Assembly (NCBI RefSeq): GCF_001854805.1
Contig: NZ_MBLO01000147.1
Span: forward strand, 62,001 to 126,000
DNA: 64,000 nt
DNA from: Pseudofrankia coriaricola
GTDB lineage: Bacteria; Actinomycetota; Actinomycetes; Frankiales; Frankiaceae
Direction of reading: 5' to 3'
Shown here in pieces: positions 19,282-64,000 of this stretch. The notes under the pieces are model-generated. The model searched no databases and was not told the DNA's origin. It saw only the letters and a program-made list of their open reading frames with translations. Both the position numbers and the translations under genes were made by a program. The stretch's first letter is position 1. Each line of letters begins with the position of its first letter.

Positions 19282-20481
19282 CTAGCTCGGTCTTCTCGCG
19301 GAGGCGATGAGGTGGATACCGATGGACTCGCCTTCGCGCTCCGCGGCGAGTTCGACCTCGGTGCGAACCAGAGTGGGGAACGAGGACATGTCCGCTGACA
19401 GCGCCCGCTTCACCGCCTCGACGGACAGCACGGTGCGCGGCCGGACCCAGTCGACCTCCAGGCCGGCGCTCGTCAGCACGGCCTTGAGCTCCTCGGGCCA
19501 GAAGCACCGGGTGATCGTGCCGTCCTCCGCCGGGACGAGCACGACGTCGGCCCGTGGCACGTCGGAGAGCTCGGCCCAGCGGTGCTGCTCGGCCAGCCGG
19601 GCCAGGCCCAGCAGCAGCGAGTCGACGCACAGCAGCAACTGGCCGCCCGGCCGCAGCAGCCGGTGGATCTCCTCGAGGGTGCTCTCGGTGGCCAGGCAGA
19701 ACGACAGTGCCCGTCCCTCGGCCAGCACCGCGTCGAACGACGCCGGCGCGAACCAGTCGAGGCTGCGGGCGTCGCCCACCACGCTGCGCAGCGCACCAGG
19801 CGGACCCCCGCCGGGCTGTTCGCCCGCGCGGCGCGCGCCGGACGCTGTCCTCGTCATCGCCTGCGAGGACGGCACCGACCGGCCGCGGCCGAGGGGCGGC
19901 GCCTGGCCACGTGCGCGCTCCCTGGGCCCCCCGAAGTCCCTGGGGCCCCGACCGGATCGGCCAAGGCCGGGACTCCCGCCGGATGGGCGAAGCCCGGCGC
20001 CCCCGCCGGATCGGTGCCAGGGTTCCTCCCAGACCGGTGCCAGGGTTCCTGCCGGGTCGGCGCCGGGATCCCTGCCGGATCGGCGAAGCCGATCGGGCAG
20101 GCCTGGAAGCCGGTCCGGGAAACCTGTTGGGAGGTCCGCGATCTGGGAGGTCTGCTGGGAGTCCGGCGATCTGGGAGTCCGGCGATCCATGAGGTCCGCC
20201 GGGAGGTTCGTGACCTGGGCGGCGTCACCGACGACGCGGATGACCTGGTGACCGGCCGCCACCATCTGCCGGGCGAACCGGTCACGCTGCCCGGAGACGT
20301 CGAGCACCCTTGACGGCGCGCCCGGCAGCCACTCGCGCAGCTGGACCGAGGCGACCTCGTCGTAGAACGACCAGTAGGGGTCGTCGCTGCCCGCGGGCGC
20401 CTCGCAGACCACGGTGGGTGCGAGGGGGCGACGAAACTCCGGATCACCAAGCTCAGGATCGGCGCCGGGACCAGAAAGCAT
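19282..20481 (-). CDS. SAM-dependent methyltransferase with in-frame repeat insertion
   Basis: 399 residues, a class I methyltransferase fold split in two. Residues 1-90 contain the SAM strand RVLDVSGQRDRFARQMVAAG, where the usual glycine-rich loop is degenerate. Residues from about 205 continue with SVVGDARSLDWFAPASFDAV and the LRPGGQLLLCVDSLLLGLA strand. Between them, about 110 residues are Pro/Gly/Arg-rich low complexity encoded by the 25-bp/12-bp repeat element (19967-20211). Without the insertion the protein would be about 290 residues, the normal size. The reading frame is intact. Substrate unknown; it sits next to aroA on the same strand. Confidence 0.85.
   Translation of the reverse strand: MLSGPGADPELGDPEFRRPLAPTVVCEAPAGSDDPYWSFYDEVASVQLREWLPGAPSRVLDVSGQRDRFARQMVAAGHQVIRVVGDAAQVTNLPADLMDRRTPRSPDSQQTSQIADLPTGFPDRLPGLPDRLRRSGRDPGADPAGTLAPVWEEPWHRSGGGAGLRPSGGSPGLGRSGRGPRDFGGPRERARGQAPPLGRGRSVPSSQAMTRTASGARRAGEQPGGGPPGALRSVVGDARSLDWFAPASFDAVLAEGRALSFCLATESTLEEIHRLLRPGGQLLLCVDSLLLGLARLAEQHRWAELSDVPRADVVLVPAEDGTITRCFWPEELKAVLTSAGLEVDWVRPRTVLSVEAVKRALSADMSSFPTLVRTEVELAAEREGESIGIHLIASARRPS
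19967..20211. repeat. Composite repeat (R25/R12 family), copy A, inside the methyltransferase gene
   Basis: On the plus strand five diverged R25 units start at 19967, 19993, 20017, 20040 and 20063 (23-26 bp, consensus near CCGGGATCCCTGCCGGATCG), followed by several R12-like units built on TGGGAGGTC between 20127 and 20211. The same order, R25 then R12, occurs at 20718, 43130 and 62935, and inverted at 35493. Confidence 0.8.
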
Positions 20482-20799
20482 GAACCATTCCTACCCTTCG
20501 AAGGGCCGCGATGCGAGGCATGTCACAGACCAGGGGCGGAAGCCTCAAACGTCGGAGGGTTTGCGGTCATCCTTCCTCCTGCCGCGCAGTGCACGGGCGG
20601 CGGGACCGCCCGTGATGTCGCGGGGAGGGCTTCGGTGGGGCTCACAGCACAACCTGATCTCATGACTCGAACCGTCGATGGCGCGACGCCCCGAGGTTGC
20701 TCCCAGAGCGGTGGAATCCGGGGTTCCTCCTCGATCGGCGAGGCTGATCCGGGAGGTCTGCCGGGAGGTCGGCTGGCAGGTCCAGCCACCCAGATCGCT
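20482..20799. other. Gap between methyltransferase and Tex30-like hydrolase
   Basis: 318 bases between divergent genes. The right part holds repeat copy B (20718-20783); the left part has no recognisable gene or promoter hexamers. A plus-strand frame (20635 onward) is continuous with the hydrolase gene, so translation from further upstream cannot be excluded. Confidence 0.4.
20718..20783. repeat. Composite repeat (R25/R12 family), copy B
   Basis: One R25 unit (20718-20742, CCGGGGTTCCTCCTCGATCG and five more bases) followed by three R12-like units (CCGGGAGGTCTG, CCGGGAGGTCGG, CTGGCAGGTCCA). It ends 17 bases before the chosen hydrolase start. Confidence 0.75.
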
Positions 20800-26476: not shown

Positions 26477-26662
26477 CATGGCCGAGGGGCGCGCGACGAT
26501 GGCGAAGCCTCGCGCGCCCGGAGGCGCTTTCTAGCGTTCATGGCCGAAGGGCGCGCGACGATGGCGAAGCCTCGCGCGCCCGGAGGCGCTTTCTAGCGTT
26601 CATGGCCGAAGGGCACGCGACAGCGGCGAAGCCGCGCGCGCCTGAAGGCCCATTCCTAGCAT
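26477..26662. repeat. Three 62-bp tandem palindromic units upstream of bioB
   Basis: Units at 26477-26538, 26539-26600 and 26601-26662; the first two differ by one or two bases and the third is degenerate. Each contains a stem GGGCGCGCGA/TCGCGCGCCC of 10 bp with a 13-base loop CGATGGCGAAGCC (first unit: 26487-26496 and 26510-26519). A single related palindrome with the same loop is at 37881-37913, and two coding copies are at 60684-60790. Confidence 0.85.
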
Positions 26663-30635: not shown

Positions 30636-31472
30636 GTGTTTGGGGCGCTGGAAGGCGGGTATTACCGGACTCGTGGAGTGTGCCCTCAGTGAGCGCCCAT
30701 CGAGCGCTCACGCTGCGTCTCACTTCATGCCGGTTGAGGTGACGCCCCGCTCTCGGGGCGCCGAGTCGGGCTCGGCGACCGGTCAGTGCGACGTGGCCAC
30801 CACCGTGCCCGCGGCCGTCCAGGCCGCCTCCCGCAACGCAGCTCTTGCGTCGGGCCGTAGGCACGCCAACTCGGGCTCGGTCACCGGTCAGCGCGACTCG
30901 GCCACCACCGTGCCCGCGGCCGTCCAGGCCGCCTCCCGCAACGCAGCTCTTGCGTCGGGCCGTAGGCACGCCAACTCGGGCTCGGTCACCGGTCAGCGCG
31001 ACTCGGCCACAGCCGGAACCGCGGCCGTCCAGGCCGCCCCACGCAACGCAACCGTCGCACCGACCCTGACGAGCGCCAAGTCGGAAGCGTCCGCCAGCCC
31101 CGGACCAAGGCCCTCGAGTTTTTGGGCCGTCCAGGCCCCAAAAACAGCATCGGCCGTTCCGTCCATGGCGCGCCAGCCGGAGGCGGCGGCCATACGGACA
31201 GAACGGCCGAGAGTGCCGTGGTCGGAGGCGCACCGACTGGGCGCGCTCCGTGACATGGGCACGGATGCAACTATCGCTGAGCCACGCGTCGCGTCGGCCA
31301 GCGATTTCTGCGATATATGGCCAGGTAGTGGCGTTGTTGGCCGCTGGCCCGCGGACCCGTGCGTCGAGAGTCGCACGAACTCACGGGGAGGGATGACCCC
31401 TCAGGCGCAGCTGGTGTGCGATCCCGGCGCGCAGTGGACCGATCACCGGTCCTCGGCCGGAGGCACCGCCGG
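30636..31472. other. pdtaS-whiB1 intergenic region with 105-bp repeats
   Basis: 837 bases between convergent genes. Besides the three 105-bp units it has an imperfect inverted repeat CGGCCGTTCCGTCC (about 31150) with GGACAGAACGGCCG (about 31195). Both strands stay open through the repeat because its length is a multiple of three, but neither frame has a start with a Shine-Dalgarno, and the plus frame runs antisense through whiB1. Confidence 0.5.
30766..31080. repeat. Three tandem 105-bp repeats
   Basis: Units start at 30766, 30871 and 30976, each with TCGGGCTCGGTCACCGGTCA. Units 1 and 2 are nearly identical except at the first 30 bases; unit 3 is diverged in its second half. Period 105 = 35 codons. 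Confidence 0.9.
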
Positions 31473-35002: not shown

Positions 35003-35452
35003 ATGGGAAGTGGCGAGACGCCGGGTGCTCGACCGGGAGCCTGGGCACGCGAGACAGCGACCGCGCTGGCGGCGGCTCCGCCCGCGCTGACGGTGGCCGC
35101 GGCGCTGGTAGCGGCCGAGGGCCTGCTGCTCGTGGGCCTGGGCGCTTTCCAGGTCATACGGGGCTTCGGGAACGGCATTGACGACCTTGCTCGCGCGGAG
35201 TTCGGTGGTGTGCTGTCGCTCGGGTGCGGACTCGTGGTGTTGGTACTCGCCCGCACGCTCATGGTCAACCGCGCCGCGACGAAGTCCCCGGTCATCGTCA
35301 TCCAGCTGCTGTGTGTGCCGGTCGGCGCCGCGATGATCCAGAATGGTCTCTACGCCTATGGCATCCCGCTGCTGGTGGTCGCCGTGGCGGTCCTTCTCGC
35401 TCTGGCGGTCGCAGGGCTGCGCCGCTCCTCCGACCGCGACCCCAAGGCCTGA
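35003..35452 (+). CDS. Small integral membrane protein
   Basis: 149 residues with four hydrophobic helices (ALTVAAALVAAEGLLLVGLG; VLSLGCGLVVLVLARTLM; VIVIQLLCVPVGAAMIQN; GIPLLVVAVAVLLALAVAGL) and short charged ends (RDPKA at the C-terminus). Position next to the lipid kinase and whiB1 matches mycobacterial Rv3217c, an uncharacterised membrane protein. ATG 35003 has AAGG seven bases upstream. No function can be named. Confidence 0.83.
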   Translation: MGSGETPGARPGAWARETATALAAAPPALTVAAALVAAEGLLLVGLGAFQVIRGFGNGIDDLARAEFGGVLSLGCGLVVLVLARTLMVNRAATKSPVIVIQLLCVPVGAAMIQNGLYAYGIPLLVVAVAVLLALAVAGLRRSSDRDPKA

Positions 35453-35492: not shown

Positions 35493-35655
35493 GACCTCCC
35501 AGCAGACCTCCCAGCAGACCTCCCAGATCGCTCCGCGATCCGGCAGGGACCCCGGCTCCGCGATCCGGCAGGGACCCCGGCTCCGCGATCCGGCAGGGAC
35601 CCCGGCTCCGCGATCCGGCAGGGACCCCGGCTCCGCGATCCGGCAGGAACCCCGG
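35493..35655. repeat. Composite repeat (R25/R12 family), copy C, best-preserved array
   Basis: Three 12-bp units GACCTCCCAGCA (35493-35504, 35505-35516, 35517-35528 with one change), then five tandem 25-bp units at 35531, 35556, 35581, 35606 and 35631, each reading CTCCGCGATCCGGCAGGGAC plus CCCGG; the first four are identical and the fifth has one change. Inverted in orientation relative to copies A, B, D and F. Located between convergent stops, 10 bases from the sigma-factor stop. Confidence 0.95.
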
Positions 35656-35665
35656 CGCGCTGGCC

Positions 35666-36742
35666 CTAACCGTCCTCGAGGAGACCGCGGCGCAGCTGGG
35701 CCAGGGTGCGCGCGAGCAGGCGCGAGACGTGCATCTGGGAGATCCCCAGCTCCGTGGCGATCTGGGACTGGGTCATGTTCCCGAAGAAACGCAGTAGCAG
35801 AATGCGCTTCTCGCGCGGCGGAAGCTTCTCCAGCAGTGGCTTGAGCGACTCGCGGTACTCCACGCCCTCCAGGGACTCGTCCTGGACGCCGAGCGTGTCC
35901 GCGACGGCCGGCGACTCGTCGTCGCCGGAGTCGGGTGCGTCGAGCGAGACAGCCGAGTACGCGTTGGCCGACTCTAGCCCTTCGAGCACCTCCTCCTCGC
36001 TCATCTCGAGGTGGGCGGCGATCTCGGCGACCGTCGGTGACCGGCCGAGCGACTGGGACAGCTCCGAGGTCGCCTTCGTCAGCGACAGCTTGAGCTCCTG
36101 CAGCCGCCGCGGAACCCGGATCGCCCAGCCCTTGTCCCGGAAGTGCCGCTTGATCTCGCCGACGATGGTCGGCGTCGCGTAGGTCGAGAACTCGACGCCG
36201 CGCTCCGGGTCGAACCGGTCGACCGACTTGATCAGGCCGATGGTGGCGACCTGGACGAGGTCGTCCAGCGGCTCGCCGCGGTTGCGGAACCGGCGGGCGA
36301 GGTACTCGACGAGCGGCAGGTGCATCCGGACCAGCTGGTCACGGATCTGCGATCGCTCGCTGTCCCCTTCGGGCAGCTCGGCCAGCCGGGCGAACAACAC
36401 GCGCGCGTGCGCCCGGTCGGGGGAGCTGGTCCGGTCCGGCGTGTGCTCGTCCCGCTCCGGGGCTTCGGGTGTCTCGCCCTTGGGCTCGTCCACGCCGGGC
36501 CGCTCGGTTCCGGTGTCGGTCACGGCATCCTCGGGCTTGAGGTCGTCCTCACCGGCCCTGGGCGGCGTCTGGCTCGCCAGCATGGCCGTCTCGGCGTCGC
36601 CGCGGGGAGGCTGGGGCCGCGGAGGCCGCGCGCTCGCGGACTCGGGCGGGTCGGCAAGCGCCTCGTCCGGCCCGCCGGCGCGCTGGCTCAGGGCCGGCAC
36701 CCGGTCGCGCGGGGTGGTCGGGGTACGTCCTGGCGACGTCAT
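35666..36742 (-). CDS. SigB/SigF-type RNA polymerase sigma factor
   Basis: 358 residues. A Pro/Glu-rich N-terminal extension of about 110 residues precedes region 2 (VRMHLPLVEYLARRFRNRGE, then DLVQVATIGLIKSVDRFDPE and STYATPTIVGEIKRHFRDKG), region 3 (LQELKLSLTKATSELSQSLG) and region 4 (KLPPREKRILLLRFFGNMTQ, then IATELGISQMHVSRLLARTL). The set is that of the actinobacterial stress/developmental SigF/SigB group. ATG 36742 overlaps the stop of the RsbW-type gene (ATGA), the usual anti-sigma/sigma pair. The long N-terminal extension is unusual. Confidence 0.94.
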   Translation of the reverse strand: MTSPGRTPTTPRDRVPALSQRAGGPDEALADPPESASARPPRPQPPRGDAETAMLASQTPPRAGEDDLKPEDAVTDTGTERPGVDEPKGETPEAPERDEHTPDRTSSPDRAHARVLFARLAELPEGDSERSQIRDQLVRMHLPLVEYLARRFRNRGEPLDDLVQVATIGLIKSVDRFDPERGVEFSTYATPTIVGEIKRHFRDKGWAIRVPRRLQELKLSLTKATSELSQSLGRSPTVAEIAAHLEMSEEEVLEGLESANAYSAVSLDAPDSGDDESPAVADTLGVQDESLEGVEYRESLKPLLEKLPPREKRILLLRFFGNMTQSQIATELGISQMHVSRLLARTLAQLRRGLLEDG

Positions 36743-42960: not shown

Positions 42961-43713
42961 GCCGATCCTCTCCAGTTCCAGCCAGTTCCCGGTGCGGACG
43001 GCCCCACCGCCCTGGCCCAGGCTGGCGGTCGGCTCGCGGGCAGGTGAGCACACGCTCATCGGCTGCCCGGCCAGCAGACCCCTGGCTGGCTGGTTGGCGC
43101 TGGATGCACCCCCCGTCACGACGCGCGGCCCGGGGTCCCTGCCGGACCGCGAAGCCGGGGTTCCTGCCGGATCGCGAATCGATCTGGGAGGTCGGCTGGG
43201 AGGTTCGGGTTGCCCGTTCCGTATGTCCGTACTCGGGTGGGCAGGCGACAACGGCGGCGCACGTCCTGGGCCTTCACCCAAGCGTGGTTACGTGTCAGTA
43301 GTGCTACATGCATGCTTCGGCAACGTTGCAAGACATTTCGACCAGATGTCGTCGGTGTGATCGTCATGTGTAGTCGAACGATTGCATCTGGCCGACCGCC
43401 CGCCGCATACCGGCGCTGACGTGCAATATTTGAAGGTGCCCCGGGCGACCCCCGGTCCTACCCCCGCCGGCTCACCCGCTTGCCGCCGGGGTTCCCGCTG
43501 GTCCGCGCGGCAGACTGGCGGGTGAGCCGCTCAGGTCATCTCCTCGCGGCTGAGAGCTCCGCCCACGGGGACGGCCCGCCGGCCCCGGACGCCGGGCTGT
43601 GCCCGGCATCACCTCTCACGATGGGCGACCCCCGGACCACCGCAGACAACAGCCCCTCGACGACCCCGGGCCGTACGTAGGCAGCCGGGCCGCCCGTACC
43701 CAGGAGCACTTCC
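42961..43713. other. Divergent region, amino acid transporter / malic enzyme
   Basis: 753 bases with no convincing gene. Contains repeat copy D and a clearly AT-rich patch, 43290-43420, with CCAGATG (about 43340) and CATCTGG (about 43387) as an inverted pair and the palindrome ACATGCATG. The patch is the most likely place for divergent promoters. Confidence 0.45.
43130..43206. repeat. Composite repeat (R25/R12 family), copy D
   Basis: Two R25 units (43130-43154 and 43155-43179, beginning CCGGGGTCCCTGCCGG and CCGGGGTTCCTGCCGG) followed by R12-like units TCTGGGAGGTC and GGCTGGGAGGTT. Same orientation as copies A, B and F. Confidence 0.88.
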
Positions 43714-48091: not shown

Positions 48092-49216
48092 GTGGTGACG
48101 CCCGCCAGCGGCCGGCGCCCTGGTGGCCGGCTGAGCACCGCCGTGGCCACCCAGATCGGCCTGGCGGCGGGCCTGCTGCGCGGCTGGCTGTTCAGTAGCC
48201 GGCGGCTGCCGGCCGTGATCCTCGCGACGGCACTCGCGGCGGCGGCCACGGGGCTGCTCGCGCCGCGGGTGGACGCCGGTGGGCCGTCCGACCCAGCCAG
48301 GCCGCCGGCACGAGCGCCGGGCGCGCTCACGACCACCGCCGGCGGCACGGTGCTCGAATCGGGCGCTGATCCGCTCCCGACGGGCACACCGCCGGGAGCG
48401 GTCGCCGGGCTCATCGGTTCCAGCGGCACCCGAACCGCGCGGCTGTGCTGGCAGCCGGCCGACGGCGCCGCCGAGTACGTGCTGGAGTCCCGGGACGTGG
48501 CCGTCGGCGAGACGTGGACCACGATGCCCTACCCGATCAAGGAGCTGTGCTACACCGTTCAACAGCTACTCACCGGACATGCGTACGAGTTCCGGATTAT
48601 CGGGTCGAACAGCGCCGGCAGGGGCGCACCGTCGAACACCGTCACCGTCACAGCGGGCCCGCCCCTGCCCGGCGCGGTGAATGGCCTGGCCGCCGTGCCT
48701 GGCGCGGCGACCGTCGAGTTGTGCTGGCACGCGGCGTCGGGAGCGAACCTTTACCTTTTCGACCACCGCGATGTCACCGCTGGCGAGGCGTGGACGACGA
48801 TGCCCTACCCGATCAAGGAGCTGTGTTACACCGTCCAGCAGCTGGTCGCCGGTCATGCGTACGAGTTCCGGATCGCCGGGTCGAACAGCGCCGGCAGGGG
48901 AGCCCCGTCGAACACCGTGACGGCCTCGGTCGCCCCGGGAATGCCTTTGCCTGGTGCGGTGGCCGGCCTGACCGCCGCGCCCGGCCAGGGTACGGCCGAC
49001 CTGTGCTGGCAGGCGGCCAAGGACGCCGCCGAGTACGTGCTGGAGTCCCGGGACGTGACCGCCAGCGAGGCGTGGACGACGATGCCCTACCCGATCAAGG
49101 AGCTGTGTTACACCGTCCAGCAGCTGGTCGCCGGTCATGCGTACGAGTTCCGGATCGCCGGGTCGAACAGCGCCGGCAGAGGAGCGCCGTCGAACACCGT
49201 CACCGTGGCCGTGTGA
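48092..49216 (+). CDS. Exported or anchored protein with three fibronectin type III repeats
   Basis: 374 residues. A basic N-terminus and the hydrophobic LPAVILATALAAAATGLLAP (about 45-64) act as signal or anchor; a Pro/Ala linker follows; then three fibronectin-III repeats (about residues 100-190, 191-283, 284-374). Each carries a conserved Cys pair, LCW and ELCYTVQQL, with the shared core TTMPYPIKELCYTV and AYEFRIAGSNSAGRGAPSNT. Repeats 2 and 3 share more than 100 identical consecutive bases (offset 282). GTG 48092 follows GGGAGGA. Probable adhesion or scaffold protein; partner unknown. Confidence 0.88.
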   Translation: MVTPASGRRPGGRLSTAVATQIGLAAGLLRGWLFSSRRLPAVILATALAAAATGLLAPRVDAGGPSDPARPPARAPGALTTTAGGTVLESGADPLPTGTPPGAVAGLIGSSGTRTARLCWQPADGAAEYVLESRDVAVGETWTTMPYPIKELCYTVQQLLTGHAYEFRIIGSNSAGRGAPSNTVTVTAGPPLPGAVNGLAAVPGAATVELCWHAASGANLYLFDHRDVTAGEAWTTMPYPIKELCYTVQQLVAGHAYEFRIAGSNSAGRGAPSNTVTASVAPGMPLPGAVAGLTAAPGQGTADLCWQAAKDAAEYVLESRDVTASEAWTTMPYPIKELCYTVQQLVAGHAYEFRIAGSNSAGRGAPSNTVTVAV

Positions 49217-60988: not shown

Positions 60989-63900
60989 TCAGGCCGGGGC
61001 GTCGTCCAGGCCGTCGAGCTCGGACAGCGTGATCGGGGACCACCGGCGGGCGAGTTCGCTCGGCTCGGCGCGGACGGCCGCCGTCCGGTCGGCCCGGCTG
61101 GCCCCGCCGGGGCTCGACGGCCCGCCCGCCTCCCCGCCCGCGCCGCCCGGTGTCTCGTCGAGGGCGGCACCCGTCGCCTCCTGGGGCGCGGCGGCGCGGT
61201 CGACGCCCGCGGAGGGGATGAGCTCGGCACCGGCTGGGCCAGCCGTCGCACGCTCGGCGGGGCCCGTTTCGGGCGTTCCCGCCCGGCCACCGGCCGGGCC
61301 GATGGCGGCGGCGGACAGGCGCGGCCACAGACTGGCCAGCGCCGCCGCCGGGTCACTTTCGAAGTCGGACTGGCGGACGCGCCAGAACGGCCAGCCGGCG
61401 CGGCGCAGCTGGCGCTCCCTGGCGAAGTCGTGGGCGACCTGTGCCGGCGTGCCGACCTCGTCACCGTCGCACTCGACCGCGAGCCGGGCCCGGCCGCCCG
61501 CGACGACCAGGTCGATCCGCCGGCCGTTCACCTCGACCTGCGGCAGCACGCGGTAGCCCGCGGCGGTGAGCTCGCGGAAGACCCGCTGCTCGAACAGCGA
61601 GTCGAAGCGGGGATGCGGGATGTCCGGGGACACCTGGTCGAGTCGCGGCGGCTCGTCGGCGTCCGCCTCCTGGGCACGGCTGCGGGCCAGCACGTAGCCG
61701 AGGTGGCTGTGCCGCAGGTCGTCCGGCCGCAGGTCCTCGAGGCCGACGGAGTGGAACAGCCACATCTGGTCGCGGGCGCGCGAGGCCGCCACGTTGAACC
61801 GCCGCTGGTACTCCTGCCTGGTCAGGGCCGGGGTCGCCGTGTCCGGCGTGACCACCATCGACAGGAACACCACGTCGCGCTCGTCGCCCTGGAAGTCCGG
61901 GGGCGTGCCGACCCGCAGCCGGCGGCGCTGCTGCTCGGCGGCCGACATCCGGGCGGCGAGCAGCGAGCGGACGAGGTCCGCCTGCCCGGTGCCCTGCAGG
62001 ACGACGACGCCGAACGAGGCCCCGTCGTAACGCGGGTCGGCCGCGCAGCTCAGGACCTGTGAGACCAGCGCCTCCGCCTCCGCCGAGTTACGCAGCGCGG
62101 CGCCGGCGCCGGTGGTGTAGGCGTGCGGCACATAGCGGGCGCGCAGCGGAGGCAGCCGGTCGGCGCCGAACTGGCGCAGCGGCACCAGCGGCGCGTCCCG
62201 GTAGAACATCGCCGACGACCACTCGATGATCTCCGGCATGCAGCGGAAATGCTCGCGCAGGCGGATGACCTCGCCGAACCTGGTCCGCAGCAGGCTGAAC
62301 AGGCTCGACCGGGGGGTGAACGAGACGCGCAGCCAGCCGGGCAGGTCGGGCAGCAGCGCGTCCAGGCGACGGAACATCGGGTCCAGGCCATCGTCGTCGG
62401 CGGTGGCCAGGCCCTCCCCGTCGGCGCTGGTGAGAGCGACGCGCGTCGTGTCGCCCGGCGCGGCCGCCGGGGCGCACTGCCGGTCGTCGCCGACGATGAT
62501 CACTCGTGGGGCGAGCCACAGGAGGAACAGGCTGTCCAGGCCGGCCTGGCTGCCCTCGTCCACGATCACCACGTCGAAGCTGTCGCGGACAGCCGGGATG
62601 GTGGCGAGCACCTCGGCGATCGGCATGACCCAGGCGGGCACGCCCGTCTGGGCGATCGCCATCGCCTCCCTGGCGGCCTGCCGGTAGCGGTCGGCGTGCC
62701 GGCCGGCGAACCGGCCGCCGGCGGCGACCGCGTCCGCGTAGGCGCGCAGCGCGGCCGACTCGCGGGTGCCCATCCGCTCCAGGCAGTGCTTCCAGGCCTT
62801 GGCGCCGGCGAGCTCGGCGGTGGTGGCGGCGACCGCGTCCTCGGCGGCGTCGAGCTGGGCGTCGAGGTCAGCCGCGCCGGGGGTGGGTGCCCGGCCGGCA
62901 TCGCCCGTCGGGCCACGCCGGGCGGTGCCCTTGCCCGGGGCTCCTCCCGGATCGGCTCGGCCAGTCCGGGAGGCCGTGAACCAGCCGGCGGCCAGCCCCC
63001 AGGACCAGGCGGCCTCGAACCGCACGAGCCGATGGCGCCATTCGTCGTCGTCCACGGGCTCGGGGGCGCCGCGCGGGCCGGCCGTGCCGGTGGCCGCCTG
63101 GGCGAGCAGCAGTTCCGCCAGTGCCGGGTGGGCGCCCCTCAGCCGCCGGAGCAGGACCTCGCGGCGGGCGGCCGCGCGCCGGGCGCCGACCGCGGCCAGC
63201 AGCCCGTCGCGCGCCAGGCGGTAGCCGGCGAGATCGCGGGCCGCGAGCGTGCCCGCGAGCCGGCGCAGCTCGGCGGGGAACCCGCTCCTGTCCGCGGCGG
63301 CCTCGACCTCGGCCCGCGGCCGCTCGATCTCCGCCCGGGCCTCGGCCGCGGCGAGCCGCAGCCGGGCGAGTGCCAGAGCCCCGGCCAGCGCCCGCAACGC
63401 GTCGGCCGATCCCAGGTCGACCAGGCCGCTCCCGAGGCCCGGGCCGGCCAGGTGCACGCCGGTTTCGGTGCCCAGCGACGCGAGCAGGGAGTGGACCTGG
63501 TCGCGGGCCGTGAGGACGGCGACGACGGCGCCCAGCGCGTCCTGCGCCTCGGTGAGCCGGGCGAGCCGGATCTCGGGGGCCACGACCTCGCCACCCGGCT
63601 CGCCGGCCGCGTCCTGGCCCGCGAGCTGCCCGGGACGGCCCCCGCCGTCGGACCCGGCGGATGAGCCGGCCGTCTCGCCCCGCCCGCGCGCGTCGCCGGG
63701 CCCGAAGCCGACGTTCACACCCGCGAGCGCCCAGGCCCTGGCGGCGGCGTCGATCGCGACCTCGGCGCGCAGCCGGGCGATCACGAGGTCCAACAGCTTG
63801 GGCGTGGTGGGCGCGCGGCCGTCGACCGTGGACTCGGCGAGCAGGTCGGCCGCGTCCCTCTGGACCTGGGAGCGGAACATCCGGCGCAGGCTGCCGCCCT

Positions 63901-64000
63901 GATCCAGATGCCGGCGCAGTGCCTCACCGGCCGCGAGCATGCGCGCGGCCGGCGTCGCCAGGGGGTCGCCGGTGCCCGCCGGGGCCAGGACCGCGGCGGC
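60989..64000 (-). CDS. SF1 helicase with C-terminal nuclease-like domain (N-terminus off the window)
   Basis: At least 1003 codons; the frame is open to base 64000. Helicase motif II is DVVIVDEGSQAGLDSLFLLW, motif III VIIVGDDRQCAP, motif IV EHFRCMPEIIEW, motif V and VI FQGDERDVVFLSMV and NVAASRARDQMWLF. The P-loop must be in the missing part. At the C-terminus a PD-(D/E)XK/Vsr-like domain is visible: FEQRVFRELTAAGYRVLP, RRIDLVVAGGRARLAVECDG with Asp and Glu, HDFARERQLRRAGWPFWRV. The middle is coiled/low complexity. Such fusions occur in DNA repair or phage-defence contexts; none can be chosen here. Confidence 0.85.
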   Translation of the reverse strand, partial: AAAVLAPAGTGDPLATPAARMLAAGEALRRHLDQGGSLRRMFRSQVQRDAADLLAESTVDGRAPTTPKLLDLVIARLRAEVAIDAAARAWALAGVNVGFGPGDARGRGETAGSSAGSDGGGRPGQLAGQDAAGEPGGEVVAPEIRLARLTEAQDALGAVVAVLTARDQVHSLLASLGTETGVHLAGPGLGSGLVDLGSADALRALAGALALARLRLAAAEARAEIERPRAEVEAAADRSGFPAELRRLAGTLAARDLAGYRLARDGLLAAVGARRAAARREVLLRRLRGAHPALAELLLAQAATGTAGPRGAPEPVDDDEWRHRLVRFEAAWSWGLAAGWFTASRTGRADPGGAPGKGTARRGPTGDAGRAPTPGAADLDAQLDAAEDAVAATTAELAGAKAWKHCLERMGTRESAALRAYADAVAAGGRFAGRHADRYRQAAREAMAIAQTGVPAWVMPIAEVLATIPAVRDSFDVVIVDEGSQAGLDSLFLLWLAPRVIIVGDDRQCAPAAAPGDTTRVALTSADGEGLATADDDGLDPMFRRLDALLPDLPGWLRVSFTPRSSLFSLLRTRFGEVIRLREHFRCMPEIIEWSSAMFYRDAPLVPLRQFGADRLPPLRARYVPHAYTTGAGAALRNSAEAEALVSQVLSCAADPRYDGASFGVVVLQGTGQADLVRSLLAARMSAAEQQRRRLRVGTPPDFQGDERDVVFLSMVVTPDTATPALTRQEYQRRFNVAASRARDQMWLFHSVGLEDLRPDDLRHSHLGYVLARSRAQEADADEPPRLDQVSPDIPHPRFDSLFEQRVFRELTAAGYRVLPQVEVNGRRIDLVVAGGRARLAVECDGDEVGTPAQVAHDFARERQLRRAGWPFWRVRQSDFESDPAAALASLWPRLSAAAIGPAGGRAGTPETGPAERATAGPAGAELIPSAGVDRAAAPQEATGAALDETPGGAGGEAGGPSSPGGASRADRTAAVRAEPSELARRWSPITLSELDGLDDAPA
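62935..62978. repeat. Composite repeat (R25/R12 family), copy F, inside the helicase gene
   Basis: One R25 unit (62935-62959, CCGGGGCTCCTCCCGGATCG and five more bases) followed by one R12-like unit (AGTCCGGGAGGCC). In frame; it encodes SRTGRADPGGAPG in the insert between two helical parts of the helicase. Confidence 0.6.

Follow-up and report, generated by a model that had tools for sequence, protein, structure and literature searches.

The Reported Locus and Other Copies in the Window

The repeat under study lies in a 64,000-nucleotide stretch of the genome of Pseudofrankia coriaricola, referred to below as the window, where it sits between two convergent genes, one a frame of 149 amino acids and the other a sigma factor gene. 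It is composed of two short units, R25 and R12, which are designated here as the left arm (L) and the right arm (R), with figures giving the number of units of each. The features of the locus and the remaining copies in the window are as follows:

35003..35452, plus strand: reading frame of 149 aa without a Pfam match, ending 40 bp ahead of the reported locus
35493-35656, minus strand: the reported element, L5R3, nested/tandem, three R12 units and five R25 units
35493..35526, minus strand: the three R12 (right-arm, R) units
35517..35547, minus strand: the innermost core hairpin, CCTGCCGGATCGCGGAGCGATCTGGGAGGTC
35530..35656, minus strand: the five R25 (left-arm, L) units, four of them identical 25-mers
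35666..36742, minus strand: sigma-70-type sigma factor gene, its stop codon 10 bp off the reported locus
19948..20217, plus strand: degenerate array of L and then R units, inside a methyltransferase-like frame (19282-20481, minus strand)
20718..20785, plus strand: degenerate copy with one diverged L and three R units
43129..43207, plus strand: L2R2 element, L1R1 in its Pseudofrankia asymbiotica ortholog
62935..62976, plus strand: diverged single copy (one and two mismatches), inside an AAA_12/MTES_1575 frame (60989-63940, minus strand)

A preliminary description had counted at least five loci in the window, of which 35493 is confirmed and 43130 is a good two-by-two copy, whereas those at 19967 and 20718 are degenerate and that at 62935 is a diverged single copy. 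Taken alone (one mismatch allowed), TGGGAGGTC occurs 23 times in the window against 22.2 expected, which is no excess over chance, and its significance lies only in its position beside R25. Other tandem repeats are present in the window at 26477-26649, 30759-31050, and 48443-49206, with periods of 62, 105, and 282 bp.

The Two Units as Arms of One Hairpin

R25 and R12 had initially been taken for separate modules, a view that has to be given up, as they are the left and right arms of one imperfect hairpin, GGGGTYCCTGCCGGATCG..GAA..CGATCTGGGAGGTC. The simplest copies read GGGGTYCCTGCCGGATCGGC GAA GCCGATCTGGGAGGTC, and in a second simple form, ..GGATCGC GAA GCGATCTGG.., the loop region is two bases shorter. 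The hairpin unit measures about 40 bp, has a small GAA-type loop and conserved ends (GGGGTYCC on the left, GAGGTC plus about two bases on the right), and its stem, in most copies, is paired apart from one retained G-G mismatch and a G-T wobble.

For the longer class, pairing was scored at 13 positions in 32 distinct cores; of the resulting 416 cells, 407 hold a Watson-Crick or G-U pair, a sum that leaves out the position of the conserved G-G mismatch. In a set of 24 distinct cores pairing is complete (312 of 312 cells), both partners have changed at four of the pairs (19 cells versus 3.0 in shuffled data), and sliding the partner by one to three columns lowers the pairing to 24-52%; because these 24 cores were picked by hand, the count over 32 cores is the fairer measure. 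These compensatory changes establish the hairpin. Its folding energy is -24.2 kcal/mol for the top strand as opposed to -18.2 kcal/mol for the bottom strand.

Abundance and Taxonomic Spread

The repeat family of these soil bacteria is real and much larger than first reported. A 22-base R25 core (at most three mismatches) gives 101 + 108 matches in the whole 11.2 Mb genome, as compared to 0 + 1 for the control; an exact pattern of the two arms matches 80 times in this genome and is present in 8 of the 58 genomes searched, and a 33-base core pattern (at most three mismatches) is found at 110 places. The latter was also scanned in a family-level set of 35 genomes. Within the genus it occurs 60 times in Frankia nepalensis CN7 (G004), 36 times in G006, 34 times in G002, 24 times in P. 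asymbiotica NRRL B-16386 (G005), 14 times in Frankia sp. AgB1.9 (G003), and 10 times in G001, with no match in G007. A second genus yields 11 matches in Candidatus Frankia californiensis (G024), four in G009, and one in G021, with none in two further genomes of that genus, and the remaining 22 genomes of the family have no match. The two-arm exact pattern has no match in 23 more distant genomes, and a contig scan with an exact pattern matched 33 stretches, all of them within four Frankia-group assemblies.

Nesting of Whole Hairpins

The order of the two units, described earlier as fixed, is indeed so: 102 of 171 L units are followed by an R within 140 bp downstream on the same strand, and two have an R upstream. 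This count covers 1.26 Mb of the genome, in contigs chosen for holding matches, and uses an L 12-mer with at most one mismatch; a reversed (not complemented) control sequence gives 18 L and 2 R matches, versus 171 and 102.

When 159 elements were parsed (129 of them in this genome, 30 in relatives), the number of L units equaled that of R units in 118, against a shuffled mean of 63.0 (sd 4.7, maximum 80), with a Spearman coefficient of 0.77. Single copies account for 81 of the 118, and the 78 multi-unit elements divide into 37 that are equal, 29 that are off by one, and 12 that are off by more. The inequality among them is partly due to slippage and partly to the parser, which extends units falsely in 5.6% of random tries on the left and 3.3% on the right.

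The junctions between units follow the same order. Left junctions of 9, 11, 10, and 4 bases pair with right junctions of 7, 3, 6, and 12 at equal depth, and 53 of 61 junctions are matched in this way (22, 17, 11, and 3 by type), compared to 18.3 in shuffled data (sd 3.4, maximum 34); after removal of repeated sequences the figure is 37 of 45. Since the copies are related, these counts are not independent events, and the recurrence of the same junction types partly reflects descent. In mixed-type elements at least three levels deep, a nested order fits 33 of 39 cases and a parallel order 7 of 39. The combination of R25 with R12 corresponds to one junction type, in which the loop GCGAAG is cut and CGAT lost. 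A hairpin inserted in the loop of another hairpin would leave just such an outer loop split in two pieces, and the agreement of left and right copy numbers and of junction types arises because the “tandem” copies are for the most part entire hairpins inserted one inside another. Multi-unit loci are thus mostly nests of the form L^nR^n rather than two tandem arrays.

All nests share one orientation, as 91 followers of an L are again L; nine candidates for nests in reverse orientation were discarded, as on visual inspection they looked like series of R units with an altered letter on the opposite strand. RNA folding (MFE) pairs only 54 of 98 nest levels with their nested partner.

According to an alternative account, two ordinary tandem repeats would lie side by side, each arm having been multiplied separately by replication slippage. 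This process does operate on single arms, and to that extent the earlier description of the copies as tandem holds: four of the five L units at the reported L5R3 locus are identical, and their number would have been changed on that side by later slippage, and a single L unit distinguishes the element at C210:65466 from its ortholog. As the main process slippage is hard to keep, given that the copy numbers of the two arms covary, that junction types match in nested order, and that at two loci the ortholog has different numbers of both arms. The latter are the copy at 43130, which is L2R2 in this genome and L1R1 in P. asymbiotica so that a whole nest level differs on both sides, and that at C210:133212, which is L1R1 here and L3R3 there, its levels again differing on both sides. 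Separate slippage of the two arms is therefore regarded as quite improbable.

Insertions at Orthologous Sites

Comparison with P. asymbiotica shows insertions of the element. One hundred clusters of this genome were examined, and for 25 rows, representing 24 distinct loci, the two flanks could both be located in the P. asymbiotica sequence used; by our own reading 13 of the 24 loci are without a copy in that species, and the rest are shared, degenerate, diverged, or different in depth. At the reported locus the element is absent from P. asymbiotica, which has 38 bp between the aligned flanks in contrast to 181 bp here and reads GCGCG-GCC-GGACGCTCC in its place.

One clear case is a tRNA gene in which 119 bp (L3R3) replace three nucleotides (CAT) in this genome, with the consequence that ARAGORN no longer detects the gene; the same program finds it intact in F. 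nepalensis, P. asymbiotica, and G006. From its anticodon loop, CTTCCAA, we read it as Gly(TCC). The notion that the element struck the sole tRNA-Gly gene of its kind was refuted by a second gene with the anticodon loop CTTCCAA at C72 of this genome. At this place (L131:1452-1572, contig C11) ARAGORN detects 12 tRNA genes arrayed within 3 kb, accompanied by the broken one.

In the gene of an Lhr helicase (C210:54341; Pfam matches to DEAD_assoc, WH_Lhr, and others), a single hairpin of about 44 bp replaces about five bases and adds 13 codons while preserving the frame, in the stretch that separates the DEAD match from the Helicase_C match. Near position 6765 of C147, this genome equals P. asymbiotica plus 40 bp, which are set in a half-copy of an L arm. 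The preliminary description had stated that the element has no coding capacity; the palindrome is non-coding, but some copies lie inside open genes and that in the Lhr gene is read in frame.

At five orthologous sites compared by eye (the tRNA gene, the Lhr gene, C147 near 6765, the reported locus, and 43130), three to five nucleotides have been replaced and no target duplication was seen, so the element lacks, at these sites, the duplication by which MITEs are recognized. The alignment of loci with and without the element thus bears out the earlier remark that typical target-site signs are missing. A separate insertion of about 165 bp at C210:153906-154161 (L068), absent from P. asymbiotica, contains an LR hairpin and is bounded on either side by GCTCAC, in appearance a 6-bp target duplication belonging to another, larger element.

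Composites That Travel as Units

It had also been proposed that the composite spreads as one element, which is confirmed by the nest in the tRNA gene. Its L3R3 composite, a stretch of 121 bases, recurs with at least 90% identity over at least 105 bases at nine places in the portion of this genome’s sequence that was examined, and once in F. nepalensis. The flanks differ from place to place: one composite is in the tRNA gene, two lie in copies of a longer host repeat, and five occupy loops of other copies (L151, L135, L156, L025, and L144), while at L037 the composite is in a loop on the left side only. From the presence of one composite at nine places with unlike flanks it follows that nests are built by insertion and move about whole.

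These data also bear on the possibility that nest depth has changed mainly through homologous recombination or gene conversion between dispersed copies, with few true insertions. The copies are numerous and alike, and the same junction types recur at many loci, as would be expected if old composites were exchanged, so that differences between nests could partly stem from recombination between copies. As the principal explanation it is nevertheless unlikely, since the sites of the tRNA and Lhr insertions and that in C147 near 6765 have no full copy in P. asymbiotica and since one composite is found in unlike contexts.

Proposed Mode of Movement

The element is, with good probability, a short, non-coding, self-nesting, and non-autonomous mobile palindrome. 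In the model proposed here, a hairpin of about 40 bp would be copied from place to place and joined in with the loss of three to five target bases, the joining duplicating none of them. The loops of other copies would be common landing sites, always entered in the same orientation, and for this reason nests of the type LR, LLRR, LLLRRR, and so on would be formed. A whole nest could then move as one unit, and slippage may later add or remove identical arm units on one side. Taken together, the process would resemble transposition, with a preference for loops of the element’s own kind. Of these steps, insertion, nesting, and the travel of composites have been demonstrated. The copying may proceed via a single-stranded hairpin, with an enzyme presumably supplied in trans. 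The better folding of the top strand together with the fixed orientation gives a weak hint of a strand-specific, single-stranded step.

More tentatively, and with a probability that we place somewhat short of even, the mechanism may be a distinct one, in which a hairpin lands in hairpin loops, above all its own, replaces three to five bases, and builds L^nR^n nests that move as larger units, by neither a REP-associated Y1 tyrosine transposase (RAYT) nor a target-duplicating transposition. A single-stranded hairpin, or its cDNA, captured at a small gap would be one example of such a mechanism.

Among the closest known systems are the REPINs, hairpins built of two inverted arms and present in hundreds of dispersed copies (Bertels and Rainey 2011, PMC3116915). 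Like REPIN and REP sequences, the present element is a short imperfect palindrome of high copy number, small and mostly intergenic, with a conserved mismatch and wobble in its stem, and it might accordingly be thought of as a REPIN-type element moved by a RAYT. REPINs accompany RAYT genes, however, and a search for the Y1 transposase domain (PF01797) found nothing in any of the seven genomes of this genus in which the element occurs; the control was positive in 5 of 14 named genomes. The sole genome of the genus with PF01797, G007, is without the element. The L^nR^n grammar, moreover, is not mentioned in the consulted part of PMC3116915, and movement by a RAYT is judged highly improbable. A larger partner carrying both arms around a gene was likewise sought, and no pair 400-4000 bp apart was found among 16 lone L and 36 lone R units in 1.46 of 11.2 Mb.

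The self-nesting mobile palindrome preferred here shares single traits with several other known systems, as far as the relevant passages of the cited papers describe them. SDR5 of cyanobacteria (Elhai and others 2008) is a mobile repeat whose insertion point is a precisely defined position of the HIP1 palindrome (PMC4390886), and both it and the present element are very small mobile repeats that enter an existing palindrome precisely; host and sequence differ, and self-nesting with matched arms does not figure in the portion of PMC4390886 consulted. The GC clusters or double-hairpin elements of fungal mitochondria consist of a palindromic, GC-rich mobile unit of about 42 nt and undergo merger and shuffling (PMC4478555), but they are mitochondrial and show putative target duplications of 2-3 bp (AG, ACT), whereas bases are lost here. 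The pneumococcal BOX has modules in fixed order, a variable number of inner units, and repeats inserted into one another (PMC3049150); it varies one inner module, while in the present case both arms vary together. Palindromic elements of Rickettsia are found in frame within unrelated genes (PMC10969869, PMC3733652), in contrast to a single in-frame copy, a majority outside predicted genes, and self-nesting here. Insertion of small repeats into one another is, according to these sources, already known from REPINs, BOX, and GC clusters. For matched L^nR^n nests no account was found in the available passages of the open-license literature, including PMC1525189, PMC2884548, and PMC4447401, and the earlier statement that the element is undescribed agrees with the open-license papers on Frankia, in which no description was found.

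The significance of the element lies in the question of how the smallest bacterial repeats move, as its insertions can be read at the level of single bases, from close relatives in which the site is empty, from a spare tRNA gene that has been broken, and from a helicase gene with an insert in frame. The nests in addition record the order of events, because an inner copy postdates the one around it, except where a nest came in as a whole. The joining reaction, with its loss of three to five bases, fixed orientation, and preference for the element’s own loops, is directly testable, and the search for the enzyme has been narrowed.

Genomic Placement and Sequence Context

Genes were predicted with a home-made caller, which called 72% of the sequence coding. 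By this measure 13 of 60 clusters fall inside predicted frames, compared to 69% of random points, and 47 lie outside predicted genes, 45 of these being intergenic and two at a sequence edge. The intergenic clusters comprise 15 between convergent, 19 between tandem, and 11 between divergent genes, the corresponding values for random intergenic points being 21%, 51%, and 28%.

Such placement invites the reading that the element is a functional RNA or regulatory part, either a ribozyme-like fold or a transcription terminator selected at gene ends, to which the reported locus, itself between convergent genes, would conform. Two arrays of the R25/R12 type also match the model of the CPEB3 (HDV-like) ribozyme over its full length, one in the window (35513-35589) and one at L096:3451-3527, both on the minus strand, with 25.3 and 25.8 bits and E-values of about 6e-5 and 5e-5. 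Both scores are below the curated cutoff of 35, the nests in the tRNA gene and at 43130 give no match, and the position that we take to be the catalytic C of the model aligns with G in both arrays. An HDV-like ribozyme was hence rejected, the matches being sub-threshold and confined to one nest type, and they are treated as a probable by-product of GC-rich stems. A pattern search of the reported locus found neither a T-tract terminator nor a promoter, and copies also occur within genes, including the tRNA gene. Selection for a function of this kind has, in our estimation, a very slight probability.

As regards the mobile palindrome itself, its outer flanks exceed mismatched flank pairs a little in self-complementarity (p = 0.04); because the increase is only slight, a general preference for palindromic flanks is weakly indicated.

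Two further repeats are found in the company of the hairpin. A longer dispersed repeat, GTGACGGCGCATCAGCGC...GGAACCACG...GCTCAGCGCCCG, hosts it at three recurrent sites and is present at many loci, e.g., L099:12850-13100 and L100:6600-6850. A second hairpin, GGGCGTGCGAAAATGATCTT..CTTCGCACGCCC, is repeatedly located directly upstream of a single LR copy, as seen at L045, L087, L100, and L030.
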